64,000 nucleotides of DNA, taken from NCBI GenBank assembly GCA_037951105.1, contig JBAMJV010008074.1, forward strand, positions 1 through 64,000, in the 5' to 3' direction. The position numbers and the translations under genes were made by a program. Below, piece by piece: positions 12,162 to 59,300 of this stretch (position 1 is the first letter of the stretch; each line of letters opens with the position of its first letter). This DNA is from Echinarachnius parma (taxonomy: Eukaryota > Echinodermata > Echinoidea > Clypeasteroida > Echinarachniidae). The notes under the pieces were generated by a model, which worked only from the letters and a program-made list of their open reading frames with translations, ran no database searches and was not told the origin of the DNA.

Positions 12162-12407
12162 ATGAATGATGATGAGGATACGGGAGATAAATTTGCCGCG
12201 GCAGCAGATGGCTTCGACCAACAGGCCACGAATGGTGTCAAGAAATCCGGTCAGGACGTCATCATTGAGCCAGTAATCGAAGAGGGCCGTCCTACCATGA
12301 GCGCTCAGGAGCGATCCGACGCCATCTTAACCCGTCTGAAGAGCGCGGTGCGATACGGGATCGAAGATCGGCCGCCGTGGTACACCACCATTGTACTCGC
12401 TTTCCAG
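12162..12407 (+). CDS. SLC23: SLC23 exon 1: start codon, cytosolic N-terminus and start of TM1
   Basis: This exon codes 82 residues, from [10 protein letters not shown] to [16 protein letters not shown]. The YxIEDxPPW motif before TM1 is a hallmark of animal SLC23 proteins. The exon ends in phase 0 at CAG before GTTCGT. The ATG directly follows AG at 12160-12161, so either the exon begins at the ATG after a 5'UTR intron or the 5'UTR runs on upstream. The N-terminal ~60 residues are acidic and poorly conserved, as usual for the family. Confidence 0.9.
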
Positions 12408-19726: not shown

Positions 19727-19792
<66 letters not shown>

Positions 19793-27679: not shown

Positions 27680-27680
27680 A

Positions 27681-27711
<31 letters not shown>

Positions 27712-30085: not shown

Positions 30086-30094
30086 ATCAAAAAC

Positions 30095-30500
30095 ATGTTT
30101 GTCATATGTGATGATGAGGTTGTGGTGATGATGGTGGTGGAGGTCGTGAAGATGATGATGATGACGATGATGATGATGATGGTGATGATGAAGAAGAAGA
30201 TGGTTGTGGTGGAGTTCGTGATGATGATTATTGTTATGATGATAATGGTGGTGATGGAGGTCGTGATGAGGATTATGATGATGATGATGATAATGATGAT
30301 GATAATGATTGCTAACAGGAAGATGATGATTTTTAAAAACATGATGGTGGTGATGGTGAATTAAGGGCGTGATGATGATGATGATGATGATGATGAAGAT
30401 GAAGATGAAGATGAAGATGAAGATGAAGATGAAGATGAAGATGAAGATGAATATGAAGATGTGATGAAGATGAGGTCGATGGTGGTGGTGGTGGTCTCCT
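30095..30500. repeat. GAT/GAA trinucleotide microsatellite
   Basis: GATGAT, GGTGAT and GATGAA tracts run for about 400 bp. The His-rich and Met-rich open frames on both strands are artefacts. Confidence 0.95.
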
Positions 30501-30626
30501 TCTATCTCTGTTATTTGTTTATGTGTTACTTTAGAAAATGCAGGATTGAAATAAAGCACAAAGATTAACTTACAAACTTGTCGCCATCTAGCGAGCTCGG
30601 TTGAATAAGCAAACGCCAATCAACCC

Positions 30627-30943
30627 TGCCGGAAAGAACACACTCATTCACAGTGTGAACACACTGTGTTTCACAGTGTGGCCCACAATGTGAAATTCGA
30701 GCGTTTTCACAGTGTGAAAGCCAGTTAATTCACACTGTGTACACACTGTGAAATTGCTGAGATAGACAGTGTGAGCGCACTTTCTTACACACTGTGAACG
30801 CAGGTAATTTCACACTGTGGCGATAGTGCCCTCACAGTGTGTTCACATTGTGAATTGGCTTTCACACTGTGAAAACGCTCGAATTTAACATTGTTGTCCA
30901 CACTGTGTTCATATTGTTGTGGATGAGTGTGTTCTTTCCGGCA
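30627..30943. mobile_element. Element with GCCGGAAAGAACACACTC ends and a TTCACAGTGTGAA array
   Basis: TGCCGGAAAGAACACACTCA is mirrored by GAGTGTGTTCTTTCCGGCA. Between them CACAGTGTG or CACACTGTG occurs well over ten times, often as the palindrome TTCACAGTGTGAA. Confidence 0.88.
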
Positions 30944-31180
30944 AGGAATGATGCATTTTAGAATAATCAAAATTAGAGACTGGATGTGAGTCCGATGTGT
31001 GCTCGTTCGAAACCCGTTCGACCCAAGAGCAAAGTATCAGAAGGCGGATTAGCATGAGACCTAGATGCAAAATCATAGAGTTCTGTTCAGGCCACATGCA
31101 ACGATGTATACCATAGTAATATAAAACAATATAAATGTTGTCTTGTTTTCAAAACACAAATAAGAAAAAAAAATTGTATA

Positions 31181-32862
31181 TGGGCAATTCCACGAAAAAT
31201 GTCACCCAAGGATGGAAAAATGAAACTCATGGGATAGCCTTGTTAACTACTGGATAGTAATGAGGAAGGACCATATTTTGATGACTAAAGGAAAAAAGTT
31301 TGAAATTCAATGCAGAATATTTTTTTTTTGGCCATTGAAGTTGGGACAAAAATTGTATGTATAACCCCCAAAAATGATGAAATTTGCATCCGTTGTTTGT
31401 GAAATAAAATTTAAAAATATGGATCACTTCAGAACAATAATTCTACTTCTAATGTCTTGTTTATGCTTTGTTTTAACATCATAGAAAAGGAAATTGTGTA
31501 AAAATCTTTACTTTTTGAAAACTGTTATTGGATAAAATCTTGATTCTTACAACATTGATGTGTAATGTCCGTGACGTTTGAGATATAAAAGTTTTTGTAG
31601 AAGCAGAAGTCCTAATTCAATTTAATTCAAAATTCATTTGCAAAGCTAGAATGTTATATCATAAAGTATATCAAGAGCATTTACTAAAATATTTGATGGC
31701 TTGTCCAGAATGGCGTCACGGACATTACGTCACGGCTGCGTCACGGACATTACATATACAGTGAAAAGTATAAAAAAGCAGAGCAAAAAAATATCAAGCA
31801 TTATTTTCTTATGTAAATGTCTTACTTTAGCCAAGAAATAAGATAATCCCAAGTAACAGGGGGACTACTACCTTCCTGGTTCAAGTTTTAATAAATTGTA
31901 TCGTTAATCAGATAGTGAACTTTGAGTCAGTACTCTGAACTACATATGTATTTATAAAACTAAATTCCTTGCTTAATTTGAACATGCATGTCTCAATAAT
32001 CAATAAAGACTTGACAATAACTTACTGGGAGGAGAAAGAGATGGTTAAATCTCATATAGTATGATCAAATTGCAAAAATTATACTCTTAGTCCATGATTT
32101 TCCATGTGTTATGCCCATGATGTACACAACTTTTTTTAGATTTTACAATTTTTTGGCACAAAACAGCATTGTACCTCATTAAAAATGTATAATATTTTTT
32201 GTAATAGTTGAACATTTGGTTTACTGCACATTCTGTTAAAACAATTTCAAATTTTACAATAATTTTGGAAAAATTATTAATATTTTAAAAATAATTTTTT
32301 GCTAATTGAAAAAAAAAATTGAAATATAATTTTTGATCTCAAAACTGTTTGATTACATATCAAATGTACAATTAAAAAAGTGTCATGCACAATGGAGCAT
32401 TTTTTGCGGGTTATTTCTGAGTTTAGAAAAAGTGGACAAAAGTGTAATGTCCGTGACGCTGAAAATGTAATGTCCGTGACGCAACGTTTTGTTGTCTAGA
32501 TCACATATGCCTGGCCCGTTTCCCCCAAAACAACTTGGATTCAATTCATCATTGCCTTGTCTATAATTAAATACCTAAATCACCTTTGTGAGGTCTCAGA
32601 ACTCACAGACTTTTGCAAAGATGTATATGGATGCAAAAAGTCATGTCCAAAAGATGTAATGTCCGTGACGGCGCACATTTCGCAGAATTACTCAGTAACG
32701 AATTGGATAAATGTTCTGAAACTTTTTTTGCATACTTAACTAGGATATTGTTTTGTAATCAAAATAAAAGTTAGACATTAGTTAGAGGTATGAATTAGTA
32801 GTGGCATTGGAAAGTCATGAAAATTCTCTGATTTGTAATGTCCGTGACGCTGGAGTTGCCCA
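31181..32862. mobile_element. GGGCAATTCCA-ended element with seven GTAATGTCCGTGACG words
   Basis: TGGGCAATTCCA and TGGAGTTGCCCA are inverted termini, flanked by TAT on both sides. The exact 15-mer GTAATGTCCGTGACG or its complement lies at 31562, 31714, 31739, 32444, 32467, 32656 and 32835. No long open frame is present, so it is non-autonomous. Confidence 0.85.
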
Positions 32863-32961
32863 TATCGTACATAATAAGACGAAAACCGAGTTTGACGGTT
32901 AATTTGTCGATGAATAAGAAATGTTTTTTTTTTCTAAATTGAACACATCACTGAAAAGCAT

Positions 32962-33564
32962 ATAAACCGAACACAAAAAGTAGATACCCCCCTAAACAAC
33001 AGCTCATAATTTCATAACCAAGAATCGTTTAAAGATTTAGTTTCGCCAACATATTTCTATGGTAGTTAGGAAAACAATATGTTAAAATGAGACGTAACCA
33101 TTAATCCATGGTTGAGTAAGCACACATTTAAGAGAAAAAGTCATATTTCAAAATTCGCAAAATTGATATTATTATTGCAGTTTATTGAGTATTGAGCAAT
33201 TTCTAATTGCACTGCTTTACAACTGCAAGTATTGCATTTAACCACATGTGCCATAAAAAATGAAAATGGATAGAATTTCAATCAGCAATTTTTCATAAAT
33301 CATAATTAATGCATTTAGCCACATGTGCTGTTTCACAGCAATGTAGAGGCATGCGCAAGTTCTTGTGACTTTTGAAAGTGGGTCATTTTGTCTTTAATCT
33401 GTTGTCATTCAACCATGAAGTGATGGATATCTCTGATATCTCACATAACACGTTTATAACAACTGTAGAAATATTGTGGTAAAATTATAGCTTGAGACAA
33501 TTATTAGTTATGAAATTATAAGCATTTGTTTAGGGGGTATAGTTACTTTTTGTGTTCGGTTTAT
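32962..33564. mobile_element. MITE with AAACCGAACACAAAAAG ends
   Basis: ATAAACCGAACACAAAAAG and its complement, followed inward by TAGATACCCCCCTAAACAA and its near-mirror, bound a 600-bp AT-rich element without coding capacity. Confidence 0.85.
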
Positions 33565-33620
33565 TATGTTATTCCATATTACATCATAAAGATATTCAAA
33601 ACACCACACATGACTGTTTA

Positions 33621-33905
33621 CACACAGTAAAACAAAATTAAACAACTTTTTAAAACAACCAAAAACGCTGTTTAAGCCGGTCCCTCTAACAACGTTGTTG
33701 GTTGTTCAAAATTCTAAACAATGTTGTTAGAGGGACCGGCTTAAACAGCATTTTTGGCTTTTTAAGCCGGTCCCTCTAACAACATTGTTTAAAATTTTGA
33801 ACAACCAGATCTTGGTTGTTCAAAATTTTAAACAACGTTGTTAGAGGGACCGGCTTAAACAGCGTTTTTGGTTGTTTAAAAAGTTGTTTAATTTTGTTTA
33901 CTGTT
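33621..33905. mobile_element. Double-palindrome MITE
   Basis: CAGTAAAACAAAATTAAACAAC is mirrored at the right end. Inside, AAGCCGGTCCCTCTAACAAC appears four times in alternating orientation, giving a hairpin within a hairpin. TA at 33619 and 33906 may be the target duplication. Confidence 0.85.
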
Positions 33906-34649
33906 TACAGACAATCTGAAGTGGCACTGTTAAATACCCAAATCGATCAAAATGATAGACGACTTCAACATTAGTCCGCCTTGATTTTAGCTGCATCATC
34001 GGGCAAGCTTTTGTTTCCTTTTGCAGGGAAAATTGGAAAACTGTGCAGTTAATTTAATGTCATATATTTTGTTTTGAATTAATAAACTGTTGCGTAACAC
34101 ATTTCGCATGAACCCAATGTAGCAGCCCGTCTATTTTTGTTTTACAATTGGGTTTTGTATAATAACAATTCAGTTTGTTTATATAATCACTCATGCGTGA
34201 TTTATGGATATTTTCTATGATGTCCTAAGAAAGAAAAGAATTTGAGCTTTACAGGGATTGACAGAGAAATGAAGCATGGCGCAGCTTAGGTTTCTTGTTT
34301 ACAAATTTTCCTTTCGTTCAAAATAATATGTACGAGTCGAAGTGTTTGGATTTTTAATTATTCACTGTACAAAGTCAGTGCAATAAGTTCGCGAATTACT
34401 ACACATATTAATATTTTCACATCACATCACATCAGGGTACGGAAAAGAAGGATGACTATATTTTCGGTCTTCTCTACGTTGATTGTTGCTACTGTACGCC
34501 TATTTTAAACTTTTTATATTGTAAAGAATGTATAAAATATACTGAAACACTGGCTCTTGTTTTATACGGATTTTGTTATCGAATTACTTTATATTTCTGA
34601 AATAAATAAAGTCGATGAATTACAGTGTACATTTACTTGCCATATAGTT
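33906..34649. other. Intergenic stretch before gene 2
   Basis: AT-rich sequence. 34310-34400 shows a diverged family L fragment (TTTCCTTTCGTTC, TACAAAGTCAGTGCAATAAG). Nothing else was recognised. Confidence 0.5.
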
Positions 34650-35146
34650 TGTAAACTGACACACTTTTGGATGTACCAGTCCACTTTTGGGAGATGGCGC
34701 CATTTCAGAATGCACAACAGTGTAGTGCTAGGGCCTAGGGAGATCCAAATTTCAAAGTCCAGTGGTGGTAGCTCCAGTTTCGTACGGAACAGGTATCCGC
34801 TCCAGTCGGTCTACGGTACAGATGCATATAGCGCGCCGGTACGCGGTAGTGCGGGTAGCCCAGTGGTACAGTTTCGGGGATGGAACTCGATCTGCATATC
34901 TGTAGTATACCAGCACCACCAGTGACCGGTGACTTCTGAAAGTCGTCTGTGTGGTGAATGATTCCCGGAATGATTGTGTTGAAAAACACTTCCAAATGAC
35001 ATGGTGGAGAATATAAAATTTGTTACAAAATGTAGCATCCGAATCAAATATTAACCACCAGCATTACATCTTTTCATCGTGGTACCAATCCAAAAACTAA
35101 CTTTTGGTTATCGCTATTCTACTGCCCCGGAGAAGAAGCGATCGCC
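34650..35146 (+). promoter_or_regulatory. Likely 5'UTR and promoter region of gene 2
   Basis: The sequence becomes richer in CpG (for example GCGCGCCGGTACGCGG near 34830) just before the first coding exon, unlike the AT-rich surroundings. No TATA box or start site can be fixed by eye. A 122-codon open frame here looks like chance. Confidence 0.35.
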
Positions 35147-35308
35147 ATGCGGGGACTGTCGGCGCGGAGTTGCTGTCTAGTGGTGCTGGTCACCGCTTTA
35201 AATTTGCTGTTCAACCATTTTGCCTCAGCCGATGATTTGTGCTGTTCGGGAGATCAGGCTCCAAGGACGAATTGCTCATTCCAGTACACCGACTTGAAAC
35301 AGAATGAG
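35147..35308 (+). CDS. Gene 2 exon 1: signal peptide
   Basis: The exon codes 54 residues starting MRGLSARSCCLVVLVTAL and ending DLKQNE. The ATG sits in a good context (GCGATCGCCATGC). The donor GTATGT follows in phase 0. CC and SGDQAP follow the presumed signal cleavage. Confidence 0.75.
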
Positions 35309-38300
35309 GTATGTCTGATAAAATTTGATACTCATTAATTGTTTTTGTTTCCGTTTTCTTTTACAATATTACAATCTGAAAATGAGAGTAAACTTTGCGA
35401 AAAAAAAGAAGAAAAAAGATAGATGATGAGTATATAATGCTAATGTCTGTGATGACAACAATAAGATAATTGATGATGGTGAGTATAATGATGATGCCAA
35501 CAATAACAACATAATTGATGATGATAATGATAATGGTGAGGATGATGATGATGATAATGGTGAGATGAGGAGGATGATTATAATGATGGTTGTGATGATA
35601 ATGATTATCAGAACTTACAGGAAGTTTGATAATGATTGATAACGGGGCTTACACCTGATTTGTCCAGAAAAATGGAACATACAAAAATGGGTACAAAACT
35701 ACAAAAGGAATATGTTCACTAGATATGTAATCCTTTGCTGAGAAAATGTACAGCTTTTACTCTATAGCCATAGGCGTACCCGGGGGGGGGGGGGGGGGGG
35801 GGGGTTGTTCAAACCCTCCCCCTTTGACCAAAAATTGACCGTTTTGGGGAGGTTTGAACCCCCCCTCCCTTTAAAACTTGTCGTTGGTCTCGAGACCACA
35901 TTTAAGCGGTCTCGACCATCATTACCGATGGTCTCGCCCTCGAAAATTGCGAAGAAATTGCAAGTAAAATCATAAATGTTCAAATTTTACTTGCCTGCTT
36001 ACTTCAAGATGAGATTGTCATGTTAGGAACCACATTATATTCTAGTAATTAAAGAGAAATTTAAGTTGCCTGATTGGGCAAGAAAACTGGACCATTTATG
36101 GAATTTTACTTGCCGGGCAAGTGCTAACTAGTGTTGAGCCCTGCTATTTACCTTCACAAGAGATTTATAGTTCTAAGAGATCTCATTTAATTTAATTACA
36201 CTGTAAAGCGGCATAATTAAAAAAAAATCACTTTCACATCATTTAACTTTCAATATATTGTATCCTTTAAAAAACAGAACCTGTGGATTTAGTTCATTAG
36301 GATAATAAATAGTTTCTATTGCCTACAAATGTGATAATCTGAGTCTTCTCTTAGAACTGTATTATATTACATTTTAAATGAGTGTTTCAATTTAACCGTT
36401 AAGCAGATTTGGTTTTGGTATAACATATTATCTACCGTACGTAAAGCTCAGCCTGAGTATTTTGGTAGCACTATTTTGGGGAAGGAAACAACTGCCTATC
36501 CTTTAACCCATTCAGTGCCCCGTTGCAGAAAGAGATACAATCATACAATCGATTGTAAACTCAACAGTTTATTGTAAGTTGGATCATGTGGTCTAAATGC
36601 ACAAATCTGATTGGTTGAAACGCGCACTTTTTCTGACTTACAATTAATTGTAACTTACAATCGATTGTATCTCTTTCTGCACCGGGGCCCAGGACTGATT
36701 GATTTTGCTATAATCTGTATTCTCCTTGGGGACCAATCCTGAATAGGTTAAATGTGTTTTTTATTAAAATGGAGTATTGTTTTTTATTATGCACTTACAG
36801 GGAATAATTTTCCTGGTATCGCATCACAATTTGCTATGCATTTTTAATATGACTGCTATACAAAATATCTTTTGTACATAGCAGTTTTCTACCATAGATA
36901 TGTACAGAATTTCATTTGAAATATTTATCCATCGGTTAAAAGTGCTAATCAAATTTGAGGAGGTAAATTATTCCCTGGCACTTATGAAACTGATACTTCT
37001 TAATGTACGTAGCAGGTGCTTTATTAATAAACACTATTTTCTAATTGTCACTATTTGTTTTGTCACAATCTGTTTTTCCTCTTTTATTGATTTGATAATT
37101 AAATTGTAATTTCCTCTTGGATTATTTGTAATTATGCAGTACTTAACATGCCAATGACATAAATAATGAGTATGACAAACCTTCATCATTCTTAGAAAAA
37201 AGGAAAGAGATTAGGATTGTTGCCCTGTCCTACATGTAGGACCAATACAAATGTGCTTTAACCCGTTCCCCTCGAGTTTTTGAAATCCCCATAGACTTTG
37301 TACACATCCTACCGGGTCCCTGTAGTCAAGGGATTAATGGGCCACCAAAATGTCAAAATCATGGGACCGGTTTCGGTTTTTCAAATTTCCCTTTCGTTAC
37401 AAAGATATGTATGATTGAAGTATTCAGATAAGAAAAACTCCGGGCAAGTTTTTCTTCCGTGTACAAAGTGAGTGCAGTGAGTTACTGAATATCAGTTTGC
37501 ATTTTCACTCATTACTTGGCCATACAATCATTCTACTTGCATGAATAGGCAGTCAAATTAAACAGTCTATTTAATACAGGTAGGTTTTCTTTCTTAAGGG
37601 CCACCTTATTAACAAAATCACACAAATTTAAGTACAATCTGATTTAACCTGTCAGACTGGGCCACAAGAAAAACAAGACAAAGTTAAAGGGATTTAGTAA
37701 CATTGTCCAAATCCTCAAAATAAAATTTTAATTCTAGCGGTTCCCTTATACCTTGTTGTATTCATATTAACAATAAAATCATGGGACCGGTTTCGGTTTT
37801 TCAAATTTCCCTTTCGTTACAAAGATATGTATGATTGAAGTATTCAGATAAGAAAAACTCCGGGCAAGTTTTTCTTCCGTGTACAAAGTGAGTGCAGTGA
37901 GTTACTGAACATCACTTTGCATTTTCACTCATTACTTGGCCATACAATGTCCATTTGACTTGAAATTTTCACACAATACCCTGTGGACATATAGGATAAC
38001 AACAATATACATTGCATCAACCATTCATCACTTTTTGCACATGTAAACAAAGTTACTAAATCCCTTTAATTATACCAACTAAATATGGATAATTCAGGAC
38101 AGGGTAGGGAATATATATGGGGGCTGAGGGCGATTTTGCCCCCTTATTTTCAAAATAGCCCCCTATATATTCAGTAGGTAGCCCCTAAAATTACCATTGG
38201 GTATTATGTTAAATATTTTGTGATATCCATCAGAAGTAGCCCCCTAAAATAAAATAATAATTCCTGCATTGATTCAGGACTATATCTATATATATATAGG

Positions 38301-41300
38301 AACAAATTTGATTGTTTTAGGCCATTCTTCACATATGATACGATTTTTCTTTTTATAGTTCAGTCATTGTTTATGTATTGAAGCCAAACGTATCATGGAA
38401 AAACATTAAAAAACATACACAAATAATATTTATCATGCTTATCATCAGAAAGGAAATTGTCTGTTCATTAAAACAGCTAACCTTCAGCTTCCTGAGTGTG
38501 ACGTGACGTAAACAACCTTCTTTTTTACTTGGAATAATTGATGTTTTCATGTGAACTTAGATTATTTCCTGTACACCTTGTCCTTCCTAACACTATTGAA
38601 CTATTTACTGTCTAATTTATGCATCATCATACATTAAAACAAAAATCATGTGTGATTTTTAGGAAATTATGTTTAAGGAAATTGCCTACTCATGGAAACC
38701 TTTATAACCTTCAATATTCTATACCCTACTGTGTTGTCAACCTTTCCTGTTTGTATTTCCTATTATTAGTCATAGTAAATATTTTCATCTAATATTTTGG
38801 TTAGTATACCAATGGCAAAATTGTTGGACTTTACATTAAATGTGGTTTGGATTTGTAAATTGCAAAGATGGAAATGTGCTTAAAAAAATTACAAATTATG
38901 ATACTTGGGGAAACTGTCCTAGCTGAATTGTGCTCAGCATTCCAAACAATAACAGGGGTAACAAAGCAATTTCATCATTATAGGGAACCCATCAAAATAA
39001 GAAATTCTCGGTTTCCAGTGCCTTTGGGTAAGGGTGACTTACAACAAAAGTTTTGTGTCATGATATTTGGCGAATGTTGACTTGTTAATGATTGGTCTTC
39101 AAAGCAGCACATAATAATTAACTGACCAATCATTTCTTTTAAAACTAATGTTAGCAGAATTTTGAAGACTCATAAAGTAACTATATGTACTTAGAACCTT
39201 ACATTCTATTTAAAGGGATCTAGTAACTTTGTTGGCATTTACAGAAAGTGAGGTGATAAGATATATGTCCTCTGAGTATTGTGTGAAAATGTCATGTTTA
39301 ATGGATGTTATATGGCTGAGTAATGAGTAAAAATGCAAAGAGATATTCCCTAACTCGTTGCACTGACTTTGTACACAGTTATGACTATCCATGGATAGCT
39401 AAAAAGCTGAACACTTCAGTCATAATTATATCTTTCTAACGAAAGGGAGATTTAAAAAAAAAACGGTTCCATGAGCGCTATGAGAGAACCAATATAGTAA
39501 GATTAGGTTTGTGGATTTGGACAAAGTTACAAAATCCCTTTAAAGTACCTGAGCGAAGGTTTAAAAATGCTTGTAACCTAAATAATTTTGGCATCATCAC
39601 AAAGGAAATGTTACATTCTTCCTAATAATTCATATATATTTGTCAAAAATTGTCACAGAATTGATTGATCTGCTATCTAAAGTGATGAAATTTCGACCCG
39701 TTATTCGCCCTTGGTCAGCCCGCTGTGTGGGGGTACGATTAATGACGTAACATGTGTGAAGAACGCATGAGAGCGCTCCCAAGCCTGTGGGCTTTGTGTA
39801 CTGTAGGTGTATGTGTATACCACCCGAATGCAGTATTCTCATCACAATGCCTGATCTTCAGGAGGAACTGCTACTAAATGTAGACATCAAAGTTGATATA
39901 AATAGCTCCACAAAATATAATGTCATTGGTATAGTGATAGTGATGATGATGATGATGATGATTTTGATTATGATGATGATGTGGGGGATGTAGGAGGGAT
40001 AGAATGAAGAGGACAAAACGGAAAATACCATGAATTCATTCTTCAGTAAAGTCACTAAAAAGACTTCTAGTACTACTAGTATTATTTAATTGCGAATATT
40101 AATTACATATGCACCGTTATTTGAACTGCATGACATCATAAAATGCAAAGGTATGCTCAAGATTCACCGTCATGTCTATATACATAACCTGCACTATAGC
40201 AACGCTCGAAATTGGCGTAGGCCCGATGGCCCGGGGCCAGTAAAAGTTGCGGTCGGGCCAGTAAAAACATGAAAATGCCAAAGTTTGGTGGCCCGATCGG
40301 GCCACCAAATGTTTAAACCATAAGAAGACAACATCAAGGAATATGAATCTCAAGTTTGACACCTCTTAAAAACACTTTAATTGTGATTTAAATATTTGCA
40401 AGAAATGAAAAGGACGGACATAAAAAGTCGCAAGCGCACTTGCGCTAGTTGAATTAATCCTTATTTATGCCTACAAATATGTGCTATTTCCTCATATGAA
40501 CACTCTCCCTTGAATTATCTACTTCTTGCATGATAAATCATGGTAAATCCTTGGTAAAATTAAACAACTTCCAGAGGTGTGTAATGACTAAAAGTAAAAG
40601 CATATGCTTATGCTGTTTTCTTAATTTCCCACACACCCCCTGGAAGCCTTTGCAACATGTAGAATATAAACATAGAACAACCAATCCACAGAGGGAGTAT
40701 GTGTGCATACTAAGACCTATCAAAACACATGTCTAACTTTTCACATTCATTCATATTGCAAAGTGCAGTGTGCTTGCCTTTGCGATACCGTCCGCGATAC
40801 CGTCAATAAAGGGGAATAATTTCATCTTTCGGATCATTATTCATATTTTTGAAGGTATTAGAAAGAATCATTTTTACAAGGTAGAGACTTGTGACTACTT
40901 GGAATTATTTTAGCTTGTAAAATAACAAAGATTTAAGTGATTTCATTTCCCGATTGGAAAAGTTATTTTAGCTATGCTCAGTCCCATGTGTGTTTTTTTG
41001 TGTTGGAGATTTTATGGACCATAAAATAACAAAATCGTACATGGAAAAGAGCTTAGTTTCATCAGTTGATGACTCTTTGATGTAACTGCTCGATTCTAGG
41101 TTTTGTTTTGTTTATTCAGTGATGGATTTCTTTAATGATGGTGGTAATTTTAACACATAACTTCCATAATTTACCAATTAATGACCAAGTAGTCATGACC
41201 ATTGTTTTTCTTTGTTTGTAAATTTTATTTTCGGGCCACCAGAAAAAAAGATAATTTCGAGCATTGGAATACAGTAACAAATGAGGCTTAACATTGCCCA

Positions 41301-44300
41301 GTACCCTGAAACTATGAATATGGTTATTGTTTTAATTTTACCTTTGTTTTTCCTTATTTTTTTCGGGCCAGTAGATTTTGGTTTCGGGCCACCAAAATTG
41401 GAAAAATACTAATTTTACTGGCCCGACCGGGCCACCAGCAAAAAAAGTTAATTTCGAGGGTTGACTATAGTTACCAACAATCACTCTGCGCTAGCTGTCA
41501 GGCTTACATGTTTACGAAAGCATCTCGGGGAAATTACACGACATAGAAGGGTAGACAAATCTATTTGCATGATTCAATATCATATAATAGAATATTCTTT
41601 ATAGGCAATAATAAAATGTAATTAGCTGTTTTCGAGAGATTTGTATTCCACTTTCATCATCAGCTGGCGTAAGTTCGTGTCATGTGAAGTCTGGATTATA
41701 AACCCTCACAAAAAGTTCCGCAATTCAAGTTTGAGCGGTCATATCTCCCTCATTACTTTATTACCGTTCATTGTGTTACCATTGGAAAGCTTGTATTCTC
41801 CCCTTCACACTAATATGACATTTCTTATCATGGAATGTGCATTACAAAGTCAAAAGTGAAATCTTGCAAAAAGCATTAATATGGTCAAACATAATGATAA
41901 TTTCTCAATCAGTCAATAAAACACACTACATCTTCCTAACAACATACACAATCGTTATTGCACCCCTTTAAAATAATAAAGGTATATTGCATCCTCAACA
42001 AAAATGATAAAACGCCATTGACGTTCACGCATGACCGACTGAACATCATTCATAATTATCACCGTTCTCACAACAAAAGGAGGGTACACTGTTGTTTTAT
42101 CAATGCATTTTGCAACATTTTACTTTTGACTTTGCCCCATATTCGGGTGTCATGCGCATTCCATGATAACATATTCATGGCAAATGTCATAAAGTGGGGA
42201 ATACCAGCCTTCTAATCATATCAAACTCATGAACGGTAATAAAGTAACATCAGAGATATAAACGCTCAAACTTGAATTGCGGAACTTCTTGTGAGGGTTT
42301 CAATACACAGTTGTATACGTCTCGCTCTATTTGTGAGGGTTTCAATACACAGTTGTATACGTCTCGCTCTACGCTCTACGCTCTAGGCGGGGGACTCACA
42401 CGTGTGACGTCACTCGACGTACTCGGTAATTCCTGTTTCAAGCCATATAGGAGTTCTGAGAAGGGTCTTCGAAACACGCTTCTTATCGCGTTGCATTGAC
42501 ATTTCAAGACTTAAGAGCAGATGATTTGTGTTCTGGTTGGTATAAGCTTCCCGCACATGTATAATTTGTCTATTTTGTGATACTTTGTGATATTTCTTCG
42601 CTCAGCTACTTTAAAGGAGGGGGGTAATCCCGGCTTTGATTCAGGTTTATAGCTTTAAATATGTGCCTTTATTGATATACCACACTCTTTTTTTCAAAGA
42701 AATCCTTAAGTTGGGAAAAAAAGGTAAATTTCATGCAACTTTTTTGCTTTTTTACGCATCAGCGTTCCATGCTCCTAAAAAAAGTCATTTATAGCAGAGC
42801 GGGAATGTGCGCACGTGTCACCCGATTCATGACATCACATACAGACCGCAACGCGGAGGAATGTGCATTGTTTACATGCAGAGCCTATGACTTGCTTGTA
42901 AAACAAACTCGTTTTTGCTTGTAAATTGAGGTTTTACTGAAAATGCTTAAGAATTGCTAAGAAATGAATTGTAGCAGGATGCAGCTACACATCTGAGTGT
43001 ATATCGTCCATGATATAAACCTGAACAAATGTTTGCAAATATTGAAACAAATGGAAATAATATCTCTGTGTCAACGTGAGTATTGCACTCAGCGTGTACG
43101 TCTATGACCGAGCTAAACTGCGATTGCCTGCAGGTGACGTCACAAAGATGACGTCATTTTTTGTTCGCCCGGGACTCAGTTTTTTTACGGGGGTTCCGAA
43201 AGTGAATTTACAAGTTGATTTTTTTTATTTTACCGGGTTTTCCCACGTATTGTATTAGTAATCTTCATGAAAATCTACCTTAGATACAGTAAAAGTGTAA
43301 AACCCAATTTTGAGGCAGTTTTCTTGTCACCATACCTTTAAAGGGATCTAGTAACTTTGATGACATGTGCAAAAAGCGATGAGTGGTTGGTACAATGTTG
43401 TTATCTGATATGTCCACTGGGTGTTGTGTGAAAATTTCAAGTTAAATGGAATTTATGTGGCCGAGTAATGAGCAAAAATGCAAAGTGAAGTGACATTCAC
43501 TAACTCGTTGCACTCACTTTGTACACGGTTCAGACGATCCGTTGGATAATTTAACATCTGAATACTTCAATCGTAAATATCTTTTTAACGAAAGGGAAAT
43601 TTGAAAAACCGAAACCTGTCCCATGCTTTTATTGCTAATACGAATACAAGGTATGAGGGAACCGCTAGAATTCCAATTGGATTTTGAGGATTTGGACAAT
43701 GTTACTATAAGTCCCTTTAAGGGGTTAAAGTGATCCATTAACCCCTTGACTATGGGAACCAGATGGGTTGTGTACAAAGTCTATGGAGATTTCACAATCT
43801 CGAAGGGAACGGGTTAAGTTTGTCAGATTTGTCCAAAAGTGATATTTGAGACTTCATTCATATCAATATCATTGCCAGATTCTTTTGAAGATGTGTGATA
43901 TTTTTTTAGAAAAATAACAAAATTGTTTACCCAGTGAAAAGGGAGAAAATATACATATTTTATCCTGATCATTTGCGCCAAGTATTCAACTTCGTATATT
44001 ATAGTGTATGGACGATATCGGATACTTTGACTTTACTTTGAAGCGTTCCCGAATGCTTTAAAATTCAATCTTAAATATCTCCATAATAAGGGAGACATTT
44101 GAAAATCAAAACCTATTTTATTCTTCTGTTCATACTATAAGCCAAAAAACAAGGTACAAGACAAGAGAGGCGTGAAGGCTCCAAGTGATTTTTTTTTTAT
44201 TTGAAGAAGTACGTAATGGATCACTTCGGTTGTTTCATATAAATATAAACATGTACTGTTTGGTTAATCGGTTCCTTTTAGAAGGGCAAAATGTTCAAAT

Positions 44301-47300: not shown

Positions 47301-50300
47301 TTACATGTATCCACAGGTTCTAGTTCTTTAGATAAGATTTAATGAATTGTATTTCCCTTTTCATCAACAATTATGTATAAAAAAGGAAGTCGCTTTGGTA
47401 ATAATCCTCAGTGCCTACATGTGGCATTCATAGGCTTTATTTATTGTTAATGAAAAACAATAATCTTGATATCTGAGTTATTGTAACTTGAGTCTACAGT
47501 GGCACTCAGAGGGGATAATCTCAATTTCTGTTTTTTTCCTCGAGATCTGACACTTAACTAAGAATACATGGTAGTCGTGACGTCAAAGCCATCCCTTTTA
47601 CATATAAAGATCTACATGTACTGTATGTACACCCAATGCTCCACACTGGCACACTCGCCTTTTTTGTCAGTGAAATAATTTTTTCCCCTTTTCTGGTAGC
47701 CCCGAATAAAACATTTACTGGCCAGAAAATTTTATTTTCTTGAGTAATCACTCTTTCCTGATCAAACATTATAGATGAAGCATGACATGGAAGAAAAGAA
47801 GATTTGTCTAATTTTGTCATGTTGGGTTGACAATCTGCTTGCCTGACAGCGGCAGCGGGCCAGTGTGAATGGTGAGCCCTGTACACCTGTAGGCTCTTTT
47901 AAAAGCAGTAAACCCTACCCCTACAGAAAATGTTTGTCGCAAGCTAATGGCTAGCTAGGGGCTAGCTAGCGAGGCCAACTCTGCTGAAATTGTGAGTGTG
48001 CTGCAATTTTTAAGCGTTTAATATACCCCTTTCATAGTGCACTGATTGTCATCGGATGCGTCCAGACTCAATATATTCAATATATTGCTGTTTATTCTTT
48101 CCTCTGATGAGTGAGTGTTTGGAAAGTAATATTCATATTCTGCATAATCTTAGCTTTCTGTAAAGGTATAATTCAACTTCTGTTGGTTTTTAATGAATCT
48201 ACAATTTAAGGAAATTCTGAAACATCAAATTATATATGTACACAATTTACCATCTACATAATAAATGGTATATAAAGGAAATGTGTAAATGTTACCATTC
48301 ATGCGTATGTTTAAAGTTAGATATTTACAGCTAATTTATATAGTAGTTAAAATGGAAAACATGCATGTTGTTGGCCCTACTGCTTGATTGATATTGTGGA
48401 AATGATATAAGATAAGATGAAGCAAAACTAAACCTAAAAGTCAATAAAGTTATGGAGAAATATAATTTGAAAAGTTTCATAAAAAGAGTTCAAATTCTGT
48501 ACATGTGAGTGTTGGGAAATATATTTTACATGGATTAAGTAACTTTGTGTTACTTTGAATGTAGAGTCAAGAAAAAAAACTCAGTAGGCGACCAAACTAT
48601 TTAGCAATATTTACTAAAACATGAATAGAGATAATCAGTATCATATCAATGAGCGTAAACGGTAGTTGAAACTTGAAAATGGGAATGAATATGATAACAA
48701 TATAAATAATATAACTAGAAAATAATAACAGGAACATGTAATTGTTGATGTTGACAAAAATTGAATAATTGAGTGAAGGAAGTGAAGAGTGAAAAAAAAT
48801 GAGGTTCCTTTAAAAAGTTTGACAATTAAATTAAATCATTAGACCACCTCTAATAATTGATGTCAATTGATTTTTTAAATTCTATGAACCTGTTAAATTC
48901 TGTTTTTCCCGTGGATGTAAACCCTACAAATAGCCAGAAAACAAATTCTTTCAGTCTCTGTGTTACAGCTTATTTGGAAAAACTGAAAGAGAACATTATT
49001 TAATTGAATTTGGGCTTTATGGGGCCAAATTATAGATCAATGTTTTTCAGTTGATATGAGAAGGGAATTAAATGGCAAAATCTAAACTGAAAATTGATAA
49101 AGTGCAGCAGTGGAAGCCCCAAATATTCCATGCTAAAAATTACCACGCCTCTGAGACCTCGTCTTAACTGGGAGAAATAGATTTTACCTCGATGTCATCC
49201 GAGCGACATCTGGATTTAAGAAACAGTAGGGGGTCTGGTCATAAAACACGGGTTGAGCCTTCGTCAGGCTCATGGCCGCAGTCATAACCAGCCATCCGCA
49301 AAATCCTCACTCGGGTAGTACCATAACAACCGCACCTCCCTCATCACGATCAGCTGGCGCGACACGCGAGTATCGGCGTGTGCTGTGTACTTTAGCGCTG
49401 ATATCATCTACCTGGGTAACGTTCCGCGCGCGTCTTAACTGGCCGTTTATCAGGATGTCGTCCGGACGTTACCGCGATATCACCCTGGCCCGACTAGGGT
49501 GAAACTCACCCCGATGTCGTCCTGATGTCGTCCTGATGTTATCCTGATTGGAGTGTCTTAACTGGAACGGTGTAGGATCTCATCCGGATAACATCAGGAT
49601 GTTACCTCGACTATTTTTCCCGGTTAAGACGGTGGCACCAATACTTCCTTGGCCAGGTACATACTTGTGACTCTGTGCATTGATCACTTTGTGCTTCTAC
49701 TTTCCATGTGCTTTTGATCTGGGTCCTGACTTATATAGTCAAACCTAAAACCTGTGTATATTGACCACCTAAGGGAAACAAGCAAAATGTCCACTGTAGA
49801 CAGGTGACCTCCATCTAGACAGGTTCTTTCACACTGTTTCTATCTGCAGTGGATCACTTTTGGTGGCCTTAATAGGCAGGTTGGCTGCTATAGACAAGTG
49901 GCCACTAAGACAGGTTTGACTGTTATACTTCAAAACATTTGAGTGATAGAATAGTCAATTTCAAATCATTTTGGGTCATTTCTTTGAACTTTCATTTTGT
50001 TGGGAAAATTTGTAGAGGTATATCTCCCAAAAATGTCGTTTCGCTAGATGAGACTTGTATTGACTATATGCTAGGATAAACCTATTGCGCCATACATATT
50101 TGATTTGGGGAATTTTAGAGCCTTTGCAAATACTGCACTGATGCGAGATAACAAGTTTGACGTCAAGCTCCTGCACCTACATACTTACAAAGAGTGTTTG
50201 ATTTTGATCATTTTGTTCACCCTGGACATCATTTGAATGGTAAAAATGTGTCTTTCATTTTTGCTACATGTAAACATAAGTTGAACATGGTAAATAAAAG

Positions 50301-53300
50301 TAGTCTTTGATTCAAGACTGTCATTATCGCCTATTAACATGGTAATAAGTTAGACTTAGTCTTTCAGTCTTTGGTACAGCTTTGGCTTTGGCTGTTTACA
50401 TGAATAGTAATTTAACCCAGTGTACGGGAACCTGGTGAACTATATTACAAAGTCTATGGAAATTTCATTATCCCAAAGGGAAGGGTTATTAAACACATGT
50501 GCAACTTTCACACATCACTTTATAGTGGATATATGTATTTATCCGATCACAAGCGTATTATTATTAATCCACCTTATGTCAGTCTGGTAAAAAAATAAGT
50601 CATCAGTTTCCTTTAATTAACCGGTTCAGGGCTGGTCCTGAAAAAAACTTGGGTTGGAGTCTATGGAAATTGTATGACAAATTAATATTTATTCAATAGA
50701 TTAAATATAACAATGCTACCAAACTTATGTGTCTAAATCTATTCAGCAGGATATGAATTATTGTGTGCTGCCAAAAGTCTTTACAAATATTACTTCAGTA
50801 AAAATAAACCTTAACATTCCCTTCAGAAAATATGTTAATCACAAGACAATGAATAAAATAAAATAATGTAAAAAAATCAGGTTATATTTAATACAGTCAA
50901 ACATGTGTGACTACATGTAGTACAAATTGGGGTACCATACTTATATCTAAAAAATCATCTCTTCAAACAACATTATCAGTCATAGCTCAACCACTCTCTA
51001 TTTCTTTACTTCGTATACTCTAATTTCCTTTTCTAAAGCGCTTAGAGGCTTGTTTGCATTATATAAGCGCTATATAAATTCGTCATATAATTATTATTAT
51101 TATATATAAGACCTTGGAATGGGGCTTCATTTACAATGTTAATGTATTTGCGTACTCAATTCTCTCTCTTTCCATTGCCTTTGTATACCTTTGCTATTCA
51201 GCAGATTAAATGGTTTAACCTGTCCCCTACTAGATTTTACCATCCCCATAGAGTTAATAAAGGAACCACCGTGTTCCCTGTAGGCAAGGGATTAATTGTC
51301 CCTCCCTCTATGCCTCACCTTTGTTGCGAGCTATCATTGTATCTTTAACTAAACAAAGAGCAGAGGATCAAAATGCAGTGGTGAGGGGCAAAGGGAATTC
51401 CCCATTTCGTCACCATGCCATCCCATGATATGGGCCCGCTGTGCAGTGCAGTACCGTGCAGTGTCATGAGAAGTCTTCTTTTTTGTTTTTCTTTATACAG
51501 TTATATACAGGATCCGGAAAAGCTTGAATGAACATATGCTCTGTCATTAGGCTTAGCAACACCACCAACACATTTGTGTTTTTTGTCGATGCAATTCTTT
51601 TTTCTTATCAAGTTGGTAAACTTTGCAATAAAGAGAGACAAGTTCTTGGAATATTTAATTATAACCATTTATAAGAATAGATTTTAAAATGTAGTCAGGT
51701 TGAAGTCTGCAGAAAATAATACATGTTTACCCAAAATAGGTTATCTTCAATTGGTTAAATAATTTTTTTAATTTGGATTTTTTTCTTCTTTTTTTTTTGG
51801 GGGGGGGGGGGCTAAAGATATAGAAAAAATGCATTGATTCTTGAAGTTATACTGTTTTTATTGGTGGCACTGTTAGTGTACATTGTACTTAGTTATAGTA
51901 CATAATTTAGTTTCATTATGCAGCATGAACCATTTCAATATTTGTTGTTTTCATTTGCCCTTTGTTTCATCAACATTAATTAATTAAGGGTTGCTATGTC
52001 ATTACTAAATATATCTGGATGTTTTATTTACATGTCCAGTTCAATGTATATTTGCACAAGTACAAAACAAACTTGGAGTTATCTGTTCTTTGAAAGGAAG
52101 TCTTTAAACTGTTTGGGAATTTTATTTGTGTTAGACCCCACTAGAATAGTTCTATTCCAAGTCTATTGTACACATGTAGATGACAGGGCTGAGTATGCGA
52201 CACAAGATCCTTTGAGTTGCCATTTAGGGTTCATCTAGATTTTTTGCTTGCATGTCATGAGTATGGAACTAATCTAACTACATGGTTTTAATCACATAAG
52301 TTTACTCTTGCCTTTATTTTGTGTTTGTTCTTAAATACAGTTTTGTTATTGTCATTTCTGAATTCTATACATGTATAAAGCATACACCATTTAAAGTTGT
52401 ATTCTTGTCAAACTTACTTGCATCGTCTTTCATGCCTGTTTATTTTCCTCTTACTAATTAAAGTACGCAGCCAGCTTTGGATTGTTAGGTTTTCTTGTTA
52501 ATGAAAAAATATATGATTTAAAGGGTGATTCCATCCAGAAACTTGATGTTTGCTATAGAATGAAGCGAATATGAAGGATCACGAGTGAAAATCGGAGGCA
52601 AAATGGTAGAGCAATACAAAAATTATGACAGGATGAACTTTGCTCTGATTGTGTGTATCGTTCGCAATTGCTATCGATAGTGACGTCACTTGCGAGCTGC
52701 AGCTATTTTTGACTTGTACATGAACATTTTACAAAATTCAAATTTTCTTAATAACAAAGCAAAATTATGAGCTTACAAATTCCAAAGTATAGTTGGCCCA
52801 TCGATATTCTTCTATGAATTTGTGAAAAAAAGCAGAGAGAAATTTATTTTTAGTTTAAAAAATGAGAAATAAGTGTATTTTCATGTACTAAAGGCATGGC
52901 GAGTTGCTCGTCAATGGTCTTGCATTTGGCGGCAATTTTGAAACAATTGTGCATAACTACATGATGTTCAAATAGGCATATCTCCCATGTTTCTTGTCCA
53001 ATTTTTATCAAATTTTCACCAATTATGCCTTTTATTCTGCTTTATCTCATCTAAAATCAGGCCCAGTATAGCAAATAGCACTTTATATTTCCACTCAGTG
53101 GACAAAACATGAGATCACAAAAATACATATTTTATCAACCTAGGTCTACTCTAAAACCCCTTCTTAATTGGGAAAAATAAACCTCACTTCGATGTTAACT
53201 GAGTGACTAGTGGATAAAAAACAGTAGGGGGTCAGGTCGTAAAACACGCAGCAAGCCTTCGGACCTATTCTTAATCTAAAATCCGCAAAATCCTCACTCG

Positions 53301-56300
53301 GGTAGGTTACCATAACAACCACACCTCCCTCATCACGCGAACAGCTGGGGCGACACATAGTATCGGCGCGCGCTGTGTTTTTTGTTCACGGCCATCACGT
53401 CTTCTACCCGGGTAACGTTCCGCGCGCTTCTTAATACAAGGTTTATCAGGATGTCATCCTGATGTTGTCAGGACGTCACCGCGCTATCACCCTGACCCAA
53501 CTAGGGTGAATCTTACCCCGATGTCGTCCTGATGTTGTCCTGATGTTATCCCGATTGGAGCTTCTTAATAGAAACGGTGTAGAATGTCATCCGGACAACA
53601 TCAGGACGTTACCGCGACTATTTTTCTTGATTAAGAATGCGCTTTAGGCTCTAGTTCCCTTTAGGCTTTGAGATGTTATAGAACTTGTCAATTCATGCCT
53701 CAGTCACCTGATTGTTTTATCTAGGATAGTAGATAAAAATGAAAAGCCAAATCATTTTTTATCAGGGACATTGTCAACACCTAGCTTTGTGTATGTCTGA
53801 TAGTTTTCTTGTTTGTCAATAAAATGTAAGCCTTTGAGATGTCTACAATTTGTTTAGTTATGGATATATTCACAATTGTTAGGATCCTATTTATATGGAT
53901 ATCATGGATAATTAGCATACTATTAGCATATTAGCATAATTAGCATACTATTAGCATATTAGCATAATTAGCATACTATTAGCATAATTAGCATACTATT
54001 TGCAATGTTTGTCTTTCTTGCTCTCAGTCAGATGAGAAACATTGTAAATGGTAATGCATTTGCTAGTACAAGGTCTTTATTTTTATAAAGTTTTCCTATG
54101 CTATTCTTTTAATACATCGTACAATTTTATTCTATGTTTTCTTTTATTTTGCTTTTTTGAAAACAGCAAACTGCTGAATGTCAATTGATCAATGGAGGAA
54201 GATTCAAGTATAGGATTAATGGTAAGTTTTCTCTCACCTCATTTCTCTTTTTGGGCAATTCCATAAATTCGGACGTACATTTCACACACTTCAATTAGGT
54301 ACTAAAGAAGAAGTTAATGTAAATCATACGATTTTATGTGATCAATAGATTGCAAATGATGAGTAGAAAATAATAATATGACTTATTCAGATTTTACCAC
54401 CTTAATGACCTTGTACCGATTAAAAAACACTGCATGGTCGGACGTACTCAGAGAAAATGATTTTTCTGACAAGAGGATTTCAACTGGAAAACTCTGTGAA
54501 GTTAATCATTTTTTGGGGCCAAATCATCTATTACCATGTTGATAAGATTGTAAATGATAGGAAATATAAACAAAATTGTAATATTTTCCCTTCGAAGTAT
54601 GGAATATTTACGCTTTATTTTTGTGTCGGACGTACAATGTCGGACGTACAAGACTGCCGTGTCGGACGTACATGTGTTATACCAATGCAAGTCTACTTGC
54701 TGCTGAAATATTTGCTGTAAATAGACACTTTAAGTCATAGTTAGTACGTAATGTTGTCTTAAATGGTAGATATAAATATTTTATCACTGTACCATTAAAT
54801 TTTGGCAGTATAATACAAATAAAAACACAAATAATCTTCACTAACATGAATATGCACTGATGGGACTACATGAACTAGATTTATAATGTATATTTGAAGT
54901 TTAGGGTTGATTTTTCATCACAAAATGTATGTTTGTTGTTCTTTCCTACTAAGAAAATTGTTAAATGTCCTAAGTGAGTCAAAACAAAATAATAATTATA
55001 CAACGTGGTCCACCTGAAGTATGTTTTTATGATATATTTTATAATGACAGCATGATAGTGTGTAGTATTAGTATGTAAATAGCCATACAAAAATGTGACT
55101 ATGTAATGTCCAGCCATATGATGATGATTTGTTATAATTAGGGATATGAATCACTAAGTAATTAAGAGATATTACATTTGAATACACTCTTTAATCATAG
55201 AGATAAGATACAGTGTGAATTTAAGTGTTTTAGGCTGGCAAAACTCTATATCATTTCAATGCCGTGTCGGACGTACATGGTCGGACGTACGCAAAAAGTG
55301 TACGTCCGACCACCCATTTTTTCCGTAATTAGTGATGATTGGAATTTTTTTTTTTACTCTCTGTGTAGAGGGGTTAGAACTTGCTTTGCATTGACATCCT
55401 GCCCTTTATTGGGTTCTTTGTCTTTTCGTGAAATAGAAATTAAGTGTTTTTCCGTGTCGGACGTACATGACAAAAATAGTCCTGATATTAATTAGCTAAA
55501 AATCGTAATTAAAAGAGTATTTTTCTAATTTTTTTGTGTTAATGGATTCAGAAAGTTATACTGTTTACATCTATCATGGTCAATTAATTATTCAGTCTTT
55601 TTTAATTGAAATACATAAAAAGATCAAATGGTATGTTACAGCAAAGAAAAATCAGCAACTTCAGTATGCCTTGATTTGGAAGGGTCTCTTGACCTTGAAC
55701 TTAGTCAAAACAAATTTTAACGAATGGTTTTTGACAGTTCACATTATTACCTTCAAATTGATGTATTATTTGGACCAATATGATGATTTTGAAATTTTGG
55801 CCTACTGGTTGACATATTTATGGAATTGCCCTTGGGCAATTCCATAAATTCGGACGTACATTTCACACACTTCAATTAGGTACTAAAGAAGAAGTTAATG
55901 TAAATCATACGATTTTATGTGATCAATAGATTGCAAATGATGAGTAGAAAATAATAATATGACTTATTCAGATTTTACCACCTTAATGACCTTGTACCGA
56001 TTAAAAAACACTGCATGGTCGGACGTACTCAGAGAAAATGATTTTTCTGACAAGAGGATTTCAACTGGAAAACTCTGTGAAGTTAATCATTTTTTGGGGC
56101 CAAATCATCTATTACCATGTTGATAAGATTGTAAATGATAGGAAATATAAACAAAATTGTAATATTTTCCCTTCGAAGTATGGAATATTTACGCTTTATT
56201 TTTGTGTCGGACGTACAATGTCGGACGTACAAGACTGCCGTGTCGGACGTACATGTGTTATACCAATGCAAGTCTACTTGCTGCTGAAATATTTGCTGTA

Positions 56301-59300
56301 AATAGACACTTTAAGTCATAGTTAGTACGTAATGTTGTCTTAAATGGTAGATATAAATATTTTATCACTGTACCATTAAATTTTGGCAGTATAATACAAA
56401 TAAAAACACAAATAATCTTCACTAACATGAATATGCACTGATGGGACTACATGAACTAGATTTATAATGTATATTTGAAGTTTAGGGTTGATTTTTCATC
56501 ACAAAATGTATGTTTGTTGTTCTTTCCTACTAAGAAAATTGTTAAATGTCCTAAGTGAGTCAAAACAAAATAATAATTATACAACGTGGTCCACCTGAAG
56601 TATGTTTTTATGATATATTTTATAATGACAGCATGATAGTGTGTAGTATTAGTATGTAAATAGCCATACAAAAATGTGACTATGTAATGTCCAGCCATAT
56701 GATGATGATTTGTTATAATTAGGGATATGAATCACTAAGTAATTAAGAGATATTACATTTGAATACACTCTTTAATCATAGAGATAAGATACAGTGTGAA
56801 TTTAAGTGTTTTAGGCTGGCAAAACTCTATATCATTTCAATGCCGTGTCGGACGTACATGGTCGGACGTACGCAAAAAGTGTACGTCCGACCACCCATTT
56901 TTTCCGTAATTAGTGATGATTGGAATTTTTTTTTTTACTCTCTGTGTAGAGGGGTTAGAACTTGCTTTGCATTGACATCCTGCCCTTTATTGGGTTCTTT
57001 GTCTTTTCGTGAAATAGAAATTAAGTGTTTTTCCGTGTCGGACGTACATGACAAAAATAGTCCTGATATTAATTAGCTAAAAATCGTAATTAAAAGAGTA
57101 TTTTTCTAATTTTTTTGTGTTAATGGATTCAGAAAGTTATACTGTTTACATCTATCATGGTCAATTAATTATTCAGTCTTTTTTAATTGAAATACATAAA
57201 AAGATCAAATGGTATGTTACAGCAAAGAAAAATCAGCAACTTCAGTATGCCTTGATTTGGAAGGGTCTCTTGACCTTGAACTTAGTCAAAACAAATTTTA
57301 ACGAATGGTTTTTGACAGTTCACATTATTACCTTCAAATTGATGTATTATTTGGACCAATATGATGATTTTGAAATTTTGGCCTACTGGTTGACATATTT
57401 ATGGAATTGCCCTTTTCTTACTTGAAATTGATTTTTTTTATTTATTTTTTTCTCATTTGAAATATGAATAGGCATTTTGATTATTGCTGTCCGTCAGTCT
57501 GTAAATCCGTTTTTACGATAACTCAATTATAAATTGAAAGACAATCATCAAACCTGGTAGCTGCATTGTATGTACCTTGAAGAGGTAACAATCTGGAAAG
57601 CTATAAGGTCAAAGGTCACATGAAATATATGCCACATTTTAATTATGAGCAATATCACTGCATGCAGAGAGTAATCATAAGCTGTTTCTGTGGAAGCATC
57701 TGTGCTGTCAAACCTGAGTTTCTATTATTTTGCTGTAAATGTTTAGGTTACCACTGAGCACTGGACAATTTTGTATATATTACAATTTTCATTGTATTTT
57801 CTTTTTCATTGAAGGCTGTCCAGCATATGCCTAGAAGCCCAAAAATAATGTTCCTGCTCCAGTCCAAAACCTAGAGACTAGTTCCTTCGACATCATGATA
57901 TTATGTGCTGTGACTTTCAAACCAGGGTTTCTGTTATTTTGCTGTAAATGTTCAGGTTACCACTGGACGACATGATAGATTACAATTTTCATTGTATTTT
58001 TCTTGTTCCTAATACTATTATAGGCTGTCCAGCGTATGCCTACGTGTCCGAAGATGATATGCCTGCTCCAGTCCATAACCTAGAGACTATAATTCCTCCA
58101 ACATGTATATGACATGTATATGTTGTTGTGTGATGTGACTGTCAAATCTGGTTTTCTTATATTTTGTTGTATATATCCAGGTTACAAATGGACAACATGA
58201 TATATTACAATTTTCTTGTTCCTAATACTATTAAAGGCTGTCCAGCGTATGCCTACGAGTCGGAAAATGATGTGGCTGCTCCAGTCCAAAACCTAGAGAC
58301 TAGTTTCTTCTACACTTCCTGCGCTCCGACCATTGAGCCAGCGTTTGCTCTCCAGGCCTCCTCCTGTCATCTGATGAACTGTTCTGACTCAAGCAGGAAT
58401 CAGTATCTGGGACTTAACGTCACCTTCAAACTGGAGCCGTACAGTAAGTGCAAGAACTTTGTAAACCTGCTGTAAACTTATAGCCTTACCTTTGAAACAT
58501 GTTCATGTTCTGCATGATATCCTCCAATACATCCTTTGAGTCTTATGTTACATTGTTTTCCATGTCTCATACTTCAAGCTGGACTGTTATGGCATTAACA
58601 TCACCTTTAGAATTGAGCCATGTAGTGAATGCAAGAACTTTGTAGATTTGCTTGATTTTGCCCCATGTGTCCTGCACCAAAGCCTTCATAATCTAGCTCA
58701 CCAGGCCTTAAAGGGACAGGTCCACTTTTACAAAACGTCTGAACAGCTTTCAGTTGACGGATGGGGATCAATGTAACACGCACAAAAAAAAAGAGCGAAC
58801 AGCCCTCTAATTTGGATTCTACGAATGAAAAACGAATGCGTCCCTCCATTTAAACTATATATCGGTCAATAAAGGAGTTCAACTGATTTAGCATAATATT
58901 ACAACAATATACATGTAGTACTAATTCTCGTAAAGGTATTGTGAAGCAGACATTTGTTAACGTATGTCACGGAAAAAGATCTCAAAAAGAAAGAATAAAT
59001 AATTACATGTAGTCAGTTTAAGCGATGTTTGGGTATTTTGCTTGGTAAACGCTCACACATTAGTACTTATGCGCGAGTCACGTAGCTAGCGCGGGTCACG
59101 TAGGGGTCATGCATACCGATCTGGCACTCCGTGAAATCTATGTACAAACTTACTCACCGGCCGAAAATATGTATGTACCTACATGTAATTAACCGACGTC
59201 CCTCAGTTTATTCAGTTTTAGGTCTATAACTCCACGAAAAAGAGATTTCAAGCCCTAATTTTTTCAGGCATGCTATTAAATGACATTTCCTTTCATATAA

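Follow-up and report, generated by a model that had tools for sequence, protein, structure and literature searches.

Two homologous repeats of Echinarachnius parma with a reiterated word spelled differently at five in-register sites

Two homologous repeats, here called C1 and C2, lie about 3.5 kb apart in a 64,000-nucleotide stretch of the Echinarachnius parma genome (contig JBAMJV010008074.1 of assembly GCA_037951105.1; hereafter the window). In each, a short word recurs at five in-register sites, both tips included; it is spelled GTCTTAAC (once GTCATAAC) throughout C1 but TTCTTAAT throughout C2. The homology, the five common sites and the identical change of the first and the last base at all of them had been proposed in a preliminary description of this DNA and were borne out by the pair alignment, with a backbone identity of 83.4% over 416 gap-free columns (words excluded). 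We lean, with moderate confidence, towards C1 and C2 being two subfamilies of one non-autonomous DNA transposon, the word being the predicted binding site of its mover and the two spellings reflecting differing mover preferences.

Concerted difference between the two spellings

Counting the first base of the word as position 0, the comparison of C1 with C2 gives G to T at position 0 and C to T at position 7, each at 5 of 5 sites, i.e., in 10 of 10 outer cells. The core TCTTAA between them differs in 1 of 30 cells (P = 0.03 for so few). The exchange extends past the eight-base word, to position 10, which is G at all five C1 sites and A at four of the five C2 sites, the fifth having G. Stacking of the five oriented sites gave 9 differing cells out of 15 at positions 8–10, more than expected from the backbone rate (P = 1.8e-4). 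The statement in the preliminary description that the bases following TTCTTAAT vary is refined accordingly, positions 8 and 9 being mixed and position 10 largely exchanged. Farther from the word start, 5 of 25 cells differ at positions 11–15 and 1 of 35 at positions 14–20; on the other side, bases -3 to -1 of the three internal sites differ in 3 of 9 cells with no common change. The word is therefore best written as [G/T]TCTTAA[C/T]NN[G/A].

All four occurrences of GTCTTAAC in the window fall inside C1, while TTCTTAAT occurs nine times (five in C2) and GTCATAAC four times (one in C1); GTCTTAAT and TTCTTAAC are the hybrids between the GTCTTAAC and TTCTTAAT spellings. Outside the set of five, C1 has near-words with up to two mismatches from GTCTTAAC at 49215 (minus strand), 49238 (plus) and 49252 (minus). 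The one at 49238, GTCATAAA, corresponds to GTCGTAAA at 53236 in C2 and kept its G.

The backbone differs in 69 of 416 columns (41 transitions and 28 transversions). A G in C1 is never matched by a T in C2 (0 of 106 columns), and a C is matched by a T in 11 of 114. At these rates, and assuming independence, the ten outer-position changes have a probability of about 3e-13. In 400,000 word sets simulated with the backbone rates, the best two columns jointly reached at most 8 concerted changes, compared with the observed 10. Moreover, of 15 GTC triplets outside the words, 13 kept the G (the other two having an A and a gap, none a T), and of 14 AAC triplets, 13 kept the C. Since the same triplets mostly stay unchanged outside the words, a mutable sequence context was ruled out as the cause. 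A control set comprised 30 homologous pairs found by BLAST in the window, with at least 120 aligned columns, identity up to 97% and low-complexity sequence masked. C1/C2 was the only pair with three or more exchanged words in register; three others showed two exchanged 6-mers and 26 showed none. Overall, the probability, the simulations, the excess at positions 8–10 and the control pairs uphold the earlier claim that ordinary divergence is insufficient and that the words differ as a set, and chance combined with neutral drift was rejected on the same grounds. Because the differences exceed drift at positions where C1 is nearly uniform, the change was probably directional in at least one lineage.

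Structure, termini and relatives of C1 and C2

The positions of both elements, their words and a second reiterated motif are given in Table 1. C1 and C2 have no common open reading frame: a 73-residue frame on the minus strand of C2 has no intact equivalent in C1, where stops interrupt each of the three minus frames. Their G+C content (51% and 47%) lies above that of the window (36%), and the first 20 bases of the inverted tips match at 18 of 20 positions in C1 and 16 of 20 in C2. The second motif, GATGTYRTCC, is in part arranged as an 11-bp tandem. An Rfam search gave no match at gathering scores. Short, non-coding and bounded by terminal inverted repeats, C1 and C2 share these features with miniature inverted-repeat transposable elements (MITEs), or non-autonomous transposons with terminal inverted repeats; they are likely to be non-autonomous inverted-repeat transposons and presumably have been mobile.

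Table 1. Elements C1 and C2, their five words and the second reiterated motif (positions in the window)
Feature	Position	Strand	Description
C1	49161..49630	+	470 bp, repeat without coding, inverted tips
C1 word 1	49161..49168	+	left tip, GTCTTAAC
C1 internal word 1	49281..49288	+	GTCATAAC
C1 internal word 2	49432..49439	+	GTCTTAAC
C1 tandem array	49513..49548	+	11-bp tandem, second motif (GATGTCGTCCT)
C1 internal word 3	49555..49562	+	GTCTTAAC
C1 word 5	49623..49630	-	right tip, GTCTTAAC on minus strand
C2	53161..53637	+	477 bp, repeat without coding, homologous to C1
C2 word 1	53161..53168	+	left tip, TTCTTAAT
C2 internal word 1	53268..53275	+	TTCTTAAT
C2 internal word 2	53428..53435	+	TTCTTAAT
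C2 tandem array	53520..53555	+	11-bp tandem, second motif (GATGTTGTCCT)
C2 internal word 3	53562..53569	+	TTCTTAAT
C2 word 5	53630..53637	-	right tip, TTCTTAAT on minus strand

TTAA is present at both tips of both elements and is the sole direct repeat shared at symmetric positions; other shared 4–5-mers, such as AGAC in C1 or CTCTA and CCCTT in C2, lie at asymmetric offsets. The three bases outside TTAA are GTC at both tips of C1 and TTC at both tips of C2, the same as in 3 of 3 internal words of the respective element. Because of this agreement, either the moving unit contains GTC/TTC or the target was chosen to match. Inwards, TTAA is followed by CTGG and CCGG in C1 and by TTGG and TCAA in C2. 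The sequence CC[C/T]T, which is the hallmark of piggyBac after TTAA (PMC2872659; published sources are used here for the portions covered), was absent from all tips of C1 and C2. The 5'-RR and YY-3' termini by which Kolobok is defined (PMC9587614) were not seen either, with CT and CC (C1) or TT and TC (C2) after TTAA and GT or TT when counted from the word start. Nor are the tips of the CACTA type, reading GTCTTAAC and TTCTTAAT. The superfamily assignment is left undecided, because the tips have TTAA but its outer bases belong to the word, the piggyBac and Kolobok motifs are absent, and the KolobokP lineage fits in part.

In the 12 bp beside the word, C1 and C2 share 9 bases on the left and 2 on the right, and the left flank of C2 matches its own inverted right flank at 7 of 10. 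These matches make the outermost boundary of the element provisional. Local alignment of 300-bp flanks revealed no significant match in six flank pairs (lowest P = 0.09).

The C2 reading frame was used for a protein search that gave one candidate and one match, a predicted protein of 76 residues (P0121) on a 598-bp contig of the European Nucleotide Archive, with 66 of 73 residues identical. Its bases were inferred by hand read-back against C2, which leaves positions 0 and 7 of internal word 1 unreadable. The last residue, asparagine, forces T at position 7 of the left-tip word, the C2 spelling, where C1 would give serine. Three of the seven differing residues are found within five codons at internal word 1 and its 3' flank (P = 0.005, for a stretch picked post hoc). 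Since this predicted protein matches the C2 frame, the family appears to extend beyond the window, with a C2-like copy elsewhere; the copies of this type are thus two in the window and one known as a predicted protein. The C1-frame search yielded three candidates, none reaching an E value of 10 or better. Word-pattern scans returned 0, 1, 0 and 0 stretches from viral contigs and one from genome contigs. In these stretches (L001 and L002) the sole strong match to C1/C2 is the searched pattern itself, 17 to 21 bases, and they are taken as chance. None of the 52 stretches matched in a protein-guided viral scan is a relative.

The composite alternative, in which C1 and C2 are the end repeats of a single element, is disfavoured, since drift after insertion would not be expected to change the words as a set; the 3.5 kb between them also contains no recognizable domain. 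The region (49631–53160) gave a weak DSL match in Pfam (E = 0.033, below the cut-off), which is taken as chance. A dispersed repeat at 24477–24985 has 86% identity over 516 columns to 52528–53042, just upstream of C2. It was ruled out as an empty site of C2, the homology ending about 120 bp before the element.

Several other features were recorded in the window. Downstream of C2, two units at 54253–55831 and 55834–57412 form a tandem dimer with a period of 1581 bp and 100% identity over the 300 bp compared. The repeat ends with GGGCAATTCCATAAAT and its inverse, TT separates the units, and each unit has eight plus-strand TCGGACGTAC words and a single minus-strand one, making it another reiterated-word element. 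It is followed by a tandem repeat of a 209-bp unit (57700–58314, 2.9 copies), the last copy of which is crossed by an open frame. An inverted repeat at 8624–9119, with 166-nt arms 98% complementary and 164 nt apart, is fold-back or MITE-like. Diverged copies of one dispersed repeat are spread over 25207–43817 in both orientations (near 25207, 26341, 37355, 37684, 39209 and 43336). Finally, 12162–27109 contains exons of an SLC23-like gene (nucleobase/ascorbate transporter family); among the best 120 of 4292 matches to the joined exons, two at 64% and 63% identity are followed by one from the sea urchin Diadema antillarum (62% over 63% of the query).

Explanations for the exchanged words

The words occupy both tips in inverted orientation in C1 as well as in C2. 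This supports a role of the word in transposition, as a mover must act at the tips, and the excess of change at positions 8–10 argues against decay by drift alone. From this pattern, we infer the word as the mover's site, together with the identity of the mover, the mechanism and the selection. If a paralogue of the mover had an altered preference at the outer word positions, it would favour the copies with fitting sites. Substitutions would then build up site by site until the tips and the internal sites agree, the rest of the element drifting meanwhile. The outcome would be two subfamilies with differing movers, each selected to match at most of its sites. Of the causes proposed in the preliminary description, selection by a changed DNA-binding protein fits best and word-to-word gene conversion fits badly.

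Several observations weigh against the differing-mover reading. The left tip of C2 keeps G at position 10, which was not exchanged there, and internal word 1 of C1 is imperfect. In the predicted protein outside the window, an isoleucine at internal word 1 forces T at position 6, i.e., a changed core base, so that the internal words are apparently not uniform in every copy, and this protein weighs against complete within-copy uniformity. Because of this changed core base and the imperfect word of C1, not every site need be bound. The comparison comprises two complete copies and one partial copy known from its predicted protein. The stretch between the two elements yielded no mover gene, as none of its Pfam matches in six frames (49631–53160) reached the cut-off. 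Finally, the only candidate for a target-site duplication is TTAA, which falls inside the word.

An unlikely but tangible alternative identifies C1 and C2 each as a solo terminal direct repeat of a KolobokP-like transposon, the word being (also) the site of an encoded I-PpoI-like His-Me nuclease with shifted specificity. In KolobokP, the terminal direct repeats measure about 450 or 660 bp, with families of 473 and 480 bp named; they have short inverted tips of their own, occur as solo copies and are reported from the echinoid Lytechinus pictus (PMC9587614). C1 and C2, at 470 and 477 bp and with their own inverted tips, agree with this. I-PpoI leaves TTAA overhangs (PMC9587614), and its site, CTCTCTTAAGGTAGC, contains the kept core TCTTAA (PMC6294500); once TTAA is given, however, this likeness adds merely two bases, TC. 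The RR termini and the 3–5 bp target duplications of the lineage are not seen, as nothing of the kind adjoins the tips except the TTAA within the word, and a strong target preference is reportedly absent from KolobokP (PMC9587614). Nor did the six-frame Pfam search of 49631–53160 find the DDD/E transposase and His-Me nuclease region, which solo repeats would lack in any case. Somewhat more doubtful is a piggyBac- or Kolobok-type mover with TTAA as its target-site duplication, GTC/TTC outside it being target DNA and the same protein preferring targets that spell the internal word. The TTAA on both sides of each element would fit, and the target halves would be palindromic (GTC/GAC and TTC/GAA). 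However, at all four tips the outside bases equal those of the internal words, as unrelated target DNA would not, the terminal motifs of both superfamilies are lacking, and the window has no other NTCTTAAGAN site. We consider it improbable that the tip words extend beyond a TTAA target duplication and that a specificity switch in one protein, which both reads the internal words and chooses the target, rewrote internal and landing sites together while keeping the core TCTTAA, possibly through an I-PpoI-like nuclease.

A host DNA-binding protein acting in regulation, silencing or insulation might bind the words, with a change in its specificity or in the paralogue used. The internal words are indeed reiterated and kept, and selection on binding sites would yield the same pattern, but the word at both inverted tips is left unexplained and the chance of this is small. 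Gene conversion from word to word, which would have made the five sites uniform within each lineage, accords with the agreement of all five words in each copy except internal word 1 of C1. It is nevertheless very improbable: the tracts would need to be about 8 bp long and end at the word edges every time, the 5' flanks of the three internal sites stay unlike, positions 8 and 9 stay mixed, and the near-word at 49238 was not converted. Least credible, and close to negligible, is neutral divergence or mutable context in two subfamilies; the 17% backbone divergence does indicate that they are old, but the statistics and controls given above all speak against it.

Bench measurements are usually needed to learn the DNA preference of a mover. 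If C1 and C2 indeed follow two movers, a diverged pair with five in-register sites in each copy shows which bases were re-specified (positions 0, 7 and 10) and which were kept (TCTTAA). It would also show a non-autonomous element tracking a changing mover even though several sites must change, and would open the co-evolution of transposon and mover to direct test.

Comparison with known systems

No report of an in-register word exchange of the C1/C2 kind was found in the titles and abstracts of the literature searched, subscription journals being mostly outside this search. The ends of piggyBac and piggyBat resemble those of C1 and C2 in the terminal TTAA and in having subterminal motifs, which in these transposons bind transposase (PMC11707139). 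In contrast, C1 and C2 are without CC[C/T]T, the piggyBac hallmark (PMC2872659), and their words include TTAA and the bases outside it. In piggyBat, subterminal binding sites can hinder transposition as well as promote it (PMC11707139), so that some of the internal words may have no stimulatory role. The coral piggyBac-type MITEs (CMITE) are likewise non-coding and TTAA-associated, with a common interior and terminal repeats that differ by family. They are about 100 bp long, however, with CC[C/T]T tips, and the portions covered describe no repetition of the tip motif in the interior (PMC2872659). KolobokP repeats share with C1 and C2 the length class, the short inverted tips, the solo copies and the occurrence in an echinoid, and their nuclease is kin to I-PpoI. 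They differ in having RR termini and 3–5 bp target duplications, and the covered portions of the source mention no reiterated word (PMC9587614).

The nearest precedent, and a close one, is provided by the CACTA (En/Spm-type) transposons of soybean, in which a short reiterated motif also differs by subfamily within one species. The consensus of this subterminal motif differs by 6 bases between Tgm1 and Tgmt*, and the authors raise co-evolution with a TNPA-like protein (PMC2613891, in the portions covered). The soybean motif lies apart from the CACTA tips, whereas the tips of C1 and C2 carry the word themselves, and the difference between C1 and C2 can be followed site by site along a common non-coding backbone.

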